From the NCBI GenBank assembly GCA_002838205.1, contig CP017950.1, positions 248,001-312,000 of the forward strand: DNA of 64,000 bases, read 5' to 3'. The translations under genes and the position numbers were made by a program. Below, piece after piece: positions 62,277 through 64,000 of the stretch. Every line of letters begins with the position of its first letter. Position 1 is the stretch's first letter. Under the pieces are notes generated by a model that saw only the letters and a list, made by a program, of their open reading frames with translations, was not told where the DNA came from and did no database searches. Source of the DNA: Tenericutes bacterium MZ-XQ. Lineage in GTDB: Bacteria; Bacillota_I; Bacilli_A; Acholeplasmatales; Acholeplasmataceae.

Positions 62277-62308
62277 AAAAATGCTGCAATCCGCAGCATT
62301 TTTTTTAT
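62277..62308. terminator. bidirectional terminator after rpsR
   Basis: ATGCTGC (62281-62287) pairs with GCAGCAT (62293-62299), with A's before and T's after. Confidence 0.88.
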
Positions 62309-62715
62309 GACTTATTTTGTTTTTCGATGAGTTTATTTAAGTCATCTACTTGTTGTTTATATTTTTTGGAGACGATCCATAAGACAATGCCGTAGATGAT
62401 TCCTATAGCAATCATGATAATGTAGATTAAACTCGACAATCGAAATAAATAATTCCCGTATACATTTCTAATCACAAGTATACCTGGTATAAGCATGAAA
62501 TATCCGAGGATAACATTGATGATGCTGTTTCCTTTTTCAAGTTTAAATAACCATAAGGTTAGACTCACAAAGGCTGATACGACAAAGATACCATATGAGA
62601 TTCTTGCAAAAGGTAATGTGACATCAAATCTTCTAACAACAATTAACGAAAGCATAAGGAACAAAACGCTCATGAAGAAGAAGACTTTTAAATAAATATT
62701 GAAATATCTTTTCAT
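62305..62715 (-). CDS. four-span membrane protein, DUF3021-like LytTR partner
   Basis: A 136-residue protein with four hydrophobic segments (about 8-26, 40-57, 66-82 and 92-115) and a charged coiled C-terminus (KYKQQVDDLNKLIEKQNK). Its ATG overlaps the stop of the LytTR gene by four bases. Small membrane proteins in this position (DUF3021, HdrM/BrsM type) restrain the adjacent LytTR regulator in streptococci. Sequence identity to that family is not certain; the call leans on size, topology and context. Confidence 0.7.
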   Translation of the reverse strand: MKRYFNIYLKVFFFMSVLFLMLSLIVVRRFDVTLPFARISYGIFVVSAFVSLTLWLFKLEKGNSIINVILGYFMLIPGILVIRNVYGNYLFRLSSLIYIIMIAIGIIYGIVLWIVSKKYKQQVDDLNKLIEKQNKS

Positions 62716-63158
62716 GATGATTTTCCTCCTAGTTTTTCTTTTAGTGATTTTACATACATTCTTGAAACGATTAAATGAATATCATTAAGTAGAATCGCTT
62801 CCATGCGACCGTTGATGTGAGACTTAAAGCTTTTAATCTTTTTGGTATTTACTATAACTGATTTATGGATTCGAATAAAAGGCGTTTGTGATAGTATTTC
62901 TTCTAACTGATAAAGTTTTAAGTCAATACTATATGTTTGTTCTTTTGTATAAACAAAAACCTCATGTCCATAAGCATCTATATAAAAAACATCTTTTGAA
63001 GGCACTTTAAATTGCTGATCATCTTTTCTACATATCAAAACCATATCGAAATAGGTTAAAGCATTTTTAATTGCTTTAACCTCTTCGTCTTCATCCTTGC
63101 ATTTGATGATGATTTCAGTTTCATTTATTTCTGGGTGTTTTTCTACATGGATTTTCAT
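62712..63158 (-). CDS. LytTR-domain DNA-binding regulator
   Basis: A 148-residue protein. The C-terminal LytTR domain covers about 48-145 (VFYIDAYGHEVFVYTKEQTY, FIRIHKSVIVNTKKIKSF, LIVSRMYVKSLKEKL). There is no receiver domain, so activity is presumably set by the membrane partner. Ten-base direct repeats upstream of the operon are probable binding sites. The gene is nine bases after the coiled-coil gene and overlaps the membrane protein gene. Confidence 0.9.
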   Translation of the reverse strand: MKIHVEKHPEINETEIIIKCKDEDEEVKAIKNALTYFDMVLICRKDDQQFKVPSKDVFYIDAYGHEVFVYTKEQTYSIDLKLYQLEEILSQTPFIRIHKSVIVNTKKIKSFKSHINGRMEAILLNDIHLIVSRMYVKSLKEKLGGKSS

Positions 63159-63167
63159 AAATCATCC

Positions 63168-63701
63168 TTAAGTGTTTAAGAGTATATTTTTTATAGTGAT
63201 GAGTTCATCATATGCTTTTTCAAGCAAGACGAGTCTATAAGTCATGATGGTTTTTATTTCGGTTTTTAAGGTTTCAATTTCTTCATCTGATATTTGATCA
63301 AATGCTCCATAGTAAGGTTCAATCAATGCTTCTATAGAACCTATGGTATCTTGATATGCTTCTCTATATTTTCTAACCTCTAACAAAGAGATTCTTAAAT
63401 ATATTTTTTCTTGTTCTGAGAGAGTTGAATAATCTCCTTCAAACGATTCTTTTAAAGTCTTAATTGATGATACTTCATCTTGAATCAAAGCTTTATAATC
63501 ATCAATTTCTTGTTTTAAAGACTCAAGATCGCCTACTGGTGTTTCAATATCAGTTTCATTTAGTTCATTTGATAAAAGTATAATCTCACCAGTCACTTGA
63601 TTAATATCAGTTTCAACTTCTTTATTGAAATCTTGAGTAAACCAAATGATACTTCCAATACCTAAAATAACAATACCTACATACATTAATTTTAATTTCA
63701 T
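63168..63701 (-). CDS. membrane-anchored coiled-coil protein, unknown function
   Basis: A 177-residue protein with one N-terminal hydrophobic segment (KLKLMYVGIVILGIGSIIWF), then acidic, heptad-like helices (DLESLKQEIDDYKALI and ALIEPYYGAFDQISDEE regions). The anchor has no lipobox cysteine. ATG 63701 follows AAAGGAGG; the longer upstream frame lacks a ribosome site and crosses the putative promoter. It is first in a three-gene operon with the LytTR regulator and membrane protein. Function is not known. Confidence 0.72.
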   Translation of the reverse strand: MKLKLMYVGIVILGIGSIIWFTQDFNKEVETDINQVTGEIILLSNELNETDIETPVGDLESLKQEIDDYKALIQDEVSSIKTLKESFEGDYSTLSEQEKIYLRISLLEVRKYREAYQDTIGSIEALIEPYYGAFDQISDEEIETLKTEIKTIMTYRLVLLEKAYDELITIKNILLNT

Positions 63702-63764
63702 TTTTATATCCTCCTTTGATGTCTTCATGATAACAAATCTATATCTTGGAGTCACAAAAGCATT

Positions 63765-63795
63765 CATAAGATGTAAAAAATGATACGTAAGATGT
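63765..63795 (-). promoter_or_regulatory. probable LytTR-binding direct repeats
   Basis: On the minus strand ACATCTTACG (63795-63786) and ACATCTTATG (63774-63765) are 21 bases apart, two DNA turns, like ComE/LytTR sites. The nearer repeat overlaps the -35 position of a TATAGA -10 (63743-63738). Confidence 0.6.
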
Positions 63796-63871
63796 ATTTT
63801 CCTATATTTTATCACAAAAATTAAGGGAATATGTTTTTTTAATTTTCGTGTGTTAATGGCTTTATTATTGA

Positions 63872-63900: not shown

Positions 63901-63921
63901 ATGATAAAGTAGGTGATCCAT

Positions 63922-64000
63922 ATGAAACGTTGGATTTTATTAACAGGCGTGGTGATTATTTTAGGATTCAGTATTTATCTTTACTGGCCTTATTTTTCTT
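63922..64000 (+). CDS. N-terminus of a membrane or secreted protein (partial)
   Basis: ATG 63922 follows AGGTGA and is open to the window end, giving 26 residues. The start is a basic MKRW followed by a hydrophobic stretch (ILLTGVVIILGFSIYLYW), a membrane anchor or signal. No lipobox cysteine is seen in the visible part. Nothing more can be said of its function. Confidence 0.7.
   Translation, partial: MKRWILLTGVVIILGFSIYLYWPYFS

Follow-up and report, generated by a model that had tools for sequence, protein, structure and literature searches.

The locus analysed here raises the question of why a small transcription regulator and its membrane partner should share an operon with a first gene, hereafter gene1, that belongs to no named family. 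The arrangement recalls the LytTR Regulatory System (LRS) described by Zou et al. (2018), in which the gene of a receiver-less LytTR regulator lies upstream of a gene for a small membrane inhibitor of the DUF3021 or DUF2154 type (PMC6193735), the inhibitor acting by retaining the regulator at the membrane (as cited in PMC13384398). Comparison of the window, that is, the whole 64-kb stretch of DNA that was analysed, with related genomes indicates at the sequence level that gene1 is most likely the output of an LRS in the wall-less Acholeplasmataceae and its conserved target.

The operon and its promoter

In the window genome, the minus-strand trio of gene1, lytTR and a DUF3021-like gene forms one tightly packed operon that ends in a terminator (Table 1). 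The start codon of gene1 (ATG at 63701) is preceded by AGGAGG, 9 bp separate gene1 from lytTR, and lytTR and the DUF3021-like gene share an ATGA overlap (62712-62715). The operon of an anchored first gene, a receiver-less LytTR gene and a four-span membrane gene proposed in the first-pass annotation was thus borne out by gene spacing, Pfam, hydropathy and the terminator.

Table 1. Features of the operon and its promoter, in window coordinates
Feature	Position	Strand	Description
gene1	63168..63701	-	177 aa; N-terminal transmembrane anchor and helical domain, residues about 58-174
lytTR	62712..63158	-	148-aa LytTR transcription regulator with no receiver domain; PF04397, 94 bits
DUF3021-like membrane protein gene	62305..62715	-	136 aa; presumed to have four spans and to inhibit the LytTR protein
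Terminator-like hairpin	62277..62303	-	Separates the LytTR operon from the convergent rpsF-ssb-rpsR operon
Distal LytTR direct repeat ACATCTTAC	63787..63795	-	21-bp spacing conserved in relatives
Proximal LytTR direct repeat ACATCTTAT	63766..63774	-	12 bp past the distal repeat, 10 bp before the -35
Weak -35, GTGACT	63750..63755	-	Consensus scan; offset conserved across related promoters
Extended -10, TG-T-TATCAT	63727..63732	-	Consensus scan; position conserved in related promoters

The LytTR domain covers residues 48-143 of the regulator and is its sole Pfam domain. Pfam found no receiver domain in the protein, which by that criterion is not a two-component response regulator; the NCBIfam full-length regulator models cover just its DNA-binding end, and hydropathy indicated no transmembrane stretch. 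In the third protein, Pfam DUF3021 aligns over residues 2-129 with only 15.0 bits where the family cut-off is 24.7; this falls short of the Pfam standard, yet the E value of 0.029 is within the E<1 that Zou et al. applied with another program (PMC6193735). At E <= 1, all eight aligned family members of this membrane partner match DUF3021 (best 7.3e-5). Hydropathy gave four regions with hydrophobic stretches in the DUF3021-like protein and a single N-terminal span in the gene1 protein. The loop of spans 3-4 in the membrane partner carries a conserved R-N-V-Y-G-N-Y-L-F-R motif, which would face out if the topology follows the positive-inside rule.

The promoter reads ACATCTTAC-12-ACATCTTAT-10-GTGACT-17-TATCAT, with TG ahead of the -10. 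Taken as 10-mers, the repeats are ACATCTTACG (63795-63786) and ACATCTTATG (63774-63765), and their start-to-start distance is 21 bp, as had been noted at first; the overlap with the -35 that had also been claimed was not upheld, the right 9-mer ending at 63766, 10 bp before GTGACT (63755-63750). The pair was the sole match at <=3 mismatches within the window, a result to be read beside the 6 of 100 shuffles that contained one. A search of the genome for further repeats, suggested in the first-pass annotation, showed that the exact pair occurs once in the 2,157,199 bp (reversed-pattern control, 0) and that allowing three mismatches adds two sites, both intragenic. Just upstream of the repeats, at about 63800-63820 on the minus strand, an TGATAAAATATAG element is conserved in 4/4 genomes of the genus that have LRS, where it might act as a second -10 or belong to the divergent gene.

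The direct repeats of known LRS are described as mostly 12 bp apart, with a strong bias towards a position 10 bp upstream of the -35 (PMC6193735), and LRS membership is assigned on a gap of 11-13 bp just ahead of the -35. The window combines a soluble receiver-less LytTR protein, an adjacent downstream membrane partner with a weak DUF3021 score, and 9-12-9 repeats followed by 10 bp. As far as sequence can tell, the interpretation of the operon as an LRS plus an extra first gene is supported, and the earlier proposal of a match to streptococcal LytTR systems gains support from gene order, the receiver-less LytTR, the DUF3021-like partner and repeat geometry alike.

The divergent neighbour, which begins in the window (63913-64000, plus strand) and runs on into L052 2914-5355, is a GdpP-type c-di-AMP phosphodiesterase with a C-terminal fusion to both ribosomal protein L9 domains in a single 814-aa frame. 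A role connected with gdpP or c-di-AMP was considered and is not supported, given that gdpP is divergent to the operon in genus g1 only and that the operons of G036, G067, G075 and loci L162-L164 have other neighbours. Domain searches of the window genome (G000) found no penicillin-binding transpeptidase domain, compared with 10 of 14 control genomes that have one, which fits a wall-less cell.

The gene1 family and its distribution

The gene1 protein is the first member of a family without a name, whose helical proteins are tethered either by a transmembrane segment or through a lipoprotein signal. Searches of Pfam and NCBIfam (e.g. DUF948, YkyA) with gene1 and seven relatives gave no match at the curated cut-off, and a PDB sequence search with the family gave nothing below E 0.14. 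A profile of five gene1 proteins from operons (A1) led to unlinked genes in other genomes, most of which bear a lipoprotein signal (Cys preceded by G, A or S). Profile-profile comparison joined the transmembrane type of the operons with the unlinked lipoproteins both directly (E 1.3e-6) and by way of a bridging set (E 1.3e-8 to the former, 1.1e-21 to the latter). Because the family has both lipid-anchored and transmembrane-anchored members, we infer that the helical part faces outward. AlphaFold2 (nine sequences) predicted a helical bundle at residues 58-174 with a low-confidence N-terminus (mean pLDDT 69, pTM 0.64), and a Foldseek search with this model returned nothing from the PDB at E <= 0.001, the best value being 0.23. 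The top VIA-align match, 6e6a (IncA; Z 12.2, rmsd 2.8, 141 aligned), was rejected as a guide to function, such a Z being commonplace among helical bundles.

A larger profile (A4) located gene1 in 21 of the 160 genomes in the order. From the 22 genomes reported by this search one spurious case was removed (G024, repeats in a 1066-aa frame), second weak matches in G073 and G075 were also discarded, and the 16 gene1 sequences with which A4 was built were recovered by construction. A1 alone found all gene1 genomes except G073, G076, G081 and G034. Its matches in G021, G102, G068, G091, G028 and G066 (E 7e-4 to 6e-3) were left out of the count because they lie in unrelated long frames (in G066, a frame with stops) and were missed by the larger profile.

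The three genes lie between rpsR and gdpP in four genomes of genus g1 (G000, G001, G003 and G004), and profile searches detected neither LRS nor gene1 in a fifth, G002. In G004 a transposase-like gene is inserted between rpsR and the DUF3021-like gene, beside an intact operon (L038 706-2001). The order gene1-lytTR-DUF3021 also occurs at other locations in G036, G075 and G067, so that the arrangement is found in three genera of the family, to which three further MAGs (L162-L164) are added. The latter came from a scan of named genomes that gave 11 loci, eight with gene1 before lytTR (L161-L168, five of them in genomes already in the set); in the three new loci a lipoprotein-type gene1 is located between ruvA and lytTR, with DUF3021 after. 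Gene1 was absent before lytTR in an Oscillospiraceae locus and two Lactobacillus loci of the scan.

Within the family, the DUF3021-like partner was identified in 19 of 88 genomes, one of 20 reported genomes having been dropped, as were weak matches in G074 and G083 that covered profile positions 69-119 only. Gene1 is present in all 19 LRS genomes, LRS in 19 of the 21 gene1 genomes, and neither in 67 of the 88, a co-occurrence with a Fisher probability of 2.4e-17 when phylogeny is not corrected for. For linked operons, the joint loss of gene1 and LRS is trivial. The counts (both, LRS only, gene1 only, neither) are 12/0/2/6 in genus g3 alone (p 7e-4) and 12/0/2/7 in g3 plus g9 after removal of the two linked-operon genomes (21 genomes; about 3e-4), again with phylogeny not corrected for. 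The two genomes in which gene1 and its site were found and LRS was not detected, G074 and G076, are 85% and 81% complete. In 12 of the 19 LRS genomes gene1 is unlinked from LRS. The LRS operons of this unlinked type are flanked in several genomes by DUF2188 and Mem_trans (PF03547) transporter genes (L107 866-3435 and similar).

LRS-type sites at unlinked gene1 and the probable role of gene1

A site matrix derived exclusively from the 19 LRS operon promoters, with the test genome's own LRS omitted each time, was applied to the 150 bp before 13 of the 14 unlinked gene1 genes, G083 being omitted at a contig end. An LRS-type site, ending 61-82 nt ahead of the start codon, was found before all 13 genes with readable upstream DNA, and each score was reached by at most 1 of 1000 first-order shuffles. 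The gene1 promoters scored 15.2-26.1, against a best of 14.0 among 329 other upstream regions (339 minus 7 gene1 and 3 LytTR-linked genes). When spacings of 14-30 were scanned, the mean best score peaked at 21 only, in the gene1 and LRS sets alike; for unlinked gene1 promoters it was 20.4 at 21 and at most 6.3 at 14-20 and 22-30. The 21-bp spacing is likewise present in 7/7 operon-type promoters of the family and in L162-L164. Core promoter elements follow at fixed distances: -35-like hexamers lie 10-12 nt from the proximal repeat in nearly all of 35 related promoters, in 33 of the 35 a -10-like hexamer (>=4/6) is found at a distance of 29-38 nt past the right repeat (14.5 expected in shuffles), and in 34 the best such hexamer begins 33-35 nt downstream of the proximal repeat.

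The same sites before the regulator operon and before unlinked gene1 suggest that gene1 is a regulon member and not a passenger. Extra genes of LRS operons can be species-specific (PMC6193735, section 9), and Zou et al. saw the four-gene SMU_294/295 operon of S. mutans in terms of such passengers (PMC6193735). That gene1, too, is carried along by chance in an otherwise ordinary LRS operon is hardly credible when the arrangement recurs in three genera and three MAGs and the unlinked genes keep their sites. The first-pass annotation had held that separate transcription of the first gene would speak against the system; this fails as a refutation, since the separate gene1 of the relatives seems to be controlled in the same way.

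Pattern scans of whole genomes yielded little indication of other LRS targets, in the sequences covered and with patterns built from known sites, by which weaker targets would be missed. In genus g1, 55 matches included four exact ones, which fall at the LRS operon's promoter in the four genomes that have it (none exact in G002), and the 12 weaker sites examined were all intragenic. With the family pattern, 7/7 exact matches in 17 related genomes precede gene1 (4) or the LRS operon (3). At <=1 mismatch there were 40 matches and 24 in the reversed control; as gene1 and LRS promoters account for 16 of the 40, the excess equals the known sites. In G036, a LRS-type repeat pair with a plausible -10 (L205 1501-1529, G036:C35) precedes a lipoprotein alpha/beta-hydrolase gene (BD-FAE, PF20434) whose ATG is missing at the expected start; this gene may be a further target of the LRS there.

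Most gene1/LRS genomes also contain a second LytTR paralogue. In the window genome (L051 3080-3589, minus strand; G000:C1:678088-678456) it is a receiver-less LytTR gene whose repeats, of the type GCAAGTTATC, are 20 bp apart, and in many family genomes it lies between trkA-trkA-trkH and a gene for a beta-propeller (PF09826) membrane protein, which makes a link to potassium uptake possible. The paralogue could bind some of the repeat sites: the half-sites of both LytTR types look alike and at least one LytTR is encoded in each of 21 genomes examined. If the repeats, at least those at unlinked gene1, were bound by this trk/beta-propeller type, gene1 would belong to another regulon. This is very unlikely, given that the sites of gene1 are spaced 21 bp, not 20, and that gene1 is absent in G006, G019, G030, G068, G070 and G071, whose LytTR proteins are non-LRS.

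Our preferred reading is that the conserved target of this three-gene LRS, and probably the reason for its existence, is gene1, an outer-face helical protein of a wall-less cell, and we consider it likely to be correct. At rest, the DUF3021-like membrane protein would keep the LytTR protein inactive, by analogy with S. mutans, until an envelope signal releases it. The LytTR protein would then bind the 9-12-9 repeats, which end 10 bp ahead of the weak promoter, and switch on gene1, itself and its inhibitor, as suggested by the published HdrRM system and the conserved geometry. In relatives with an unlinked gene1, the same sites would serve both the regulator operon and gene1. The gene1 product may act on the cell surface or feed back on the membrane protein.

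The first gene had been proposed at the outset as sensor, effector or output. Because its homologues retain LRS-type sites when unlinked, comparison across genomes favours a regulated output, and a sensing or feedback role is left with lesser weight. In that second role, gene1 would be a regulatory component that acts from the outer face as sensor or feedback brake, contacting the membrane protein and setting how tightly the latter holds LytTR, and its induction would be autoregulation within a signalling system of three parts. Near one-to-one co-occurrence with LRS, the conserved loop of the membrane protein with its presumed outward topology, and the few other targets found, by which the system may mainly control itself, all agree with such a role. 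We regard it as rather unlikely, since gene1 diverges much faster than its partners (65% identity between the window and G001, compared with 83% for LytTR and 92% for the DUF3021-like protein), unlike a tight partner interface, and since its anchor can be lipid or transmembrane and its gene unlinked. The preferred reading of gene1 as output rests on this faster evolution together with its position as the sole conserved target outside the regulator pair.

The two roles might be combined in a three-component LRS, in which gene1 reports envelope state to the DUF3021 protein and is the sole regulated product; we advance this only tentatively. If true, wall-less bacteria would possess in it a surface-sensing module complete in itself, with one regulator whether its genes are linked or scattered. 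Extracytoplasmic accessory proteins of envelope-stress systems are known in CpxP and RseB. The likeness, if gene1 feeds back, would lie in a regulator with an autoregulated outer-face helical protein; the window system is without a kinase or sigma factor, and gene1 was compared with CpxP and RseB only through its lack of family matches above cut-off. Gene1 linked, unlinked, or absent in nearly all LRS-less genomes constitutes a natural experiment that points to one dedicated product, which makes function directly testable.

Comparison with known LytTR systems

The proposal that the first gene is new in an LRS setting holds for the literature surveyed: the family is unnamed, and the titles, abstracts and passages covered in the open-licence sources report no gene1-like LRS partner. 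Zou et al. tabulate >4600 LRS operons in their supplement (PMC6193735). In the titles and abstracts of that literature, no LytTR was reported from Acholeplasma, Tenericutes, Mollicutes or Acholeplasmataceae. The present analysis extends LRS to wall-less Acholeplasmataceae and defines an unnamed surface-protein family.

Caulobacter HigX, a 'fused LRS', similarly couples LytTR DNA binding to a four-helix membrane domain and has envelope-related targets, and it differs in being one fused protein whose membrane part is required for activity, not inhibitory, and whose motif is an inverted repeat, unlike the direct repeats of the window (PMC13384398). The closest repeat pair in Table 3 of Zou et al. 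is that of the putative LRS lmo0984-lmo0987 of Listeria monocytogenes, GCATCTTAG-12-GCATGTTAC followed by 10 bp, in an operon that carries an ABC transporter (PMC6193735) and not gene1. The S. mutans systems are the only characterised examples according to the 2018 paper. HdrRM, BrsRM and SMU_433/434 share with the window the placement of a receiver-less LytTR gene immediately before the gene of a small DUF3021-type membrane protein, a 12-bp gap between the direct repeats, a distance of 10 bp from these to the -35, and an extended -10 (PMC6193735). At SMU_433 the site is ACATCTTAT-12-ACCTCTTAT with 10 bp, the first half-site being identical to that of the window (PMC6193735). Compared with these systems, that of the window is without ABC transporter or bacteriocin genes, its host is a wall-less member of the Acholeplasmataceae, and its operon opens with an additional, conserved gene that encodes a helical protein of the outer face; some relatives hold this gene as a separate unit with its own site.
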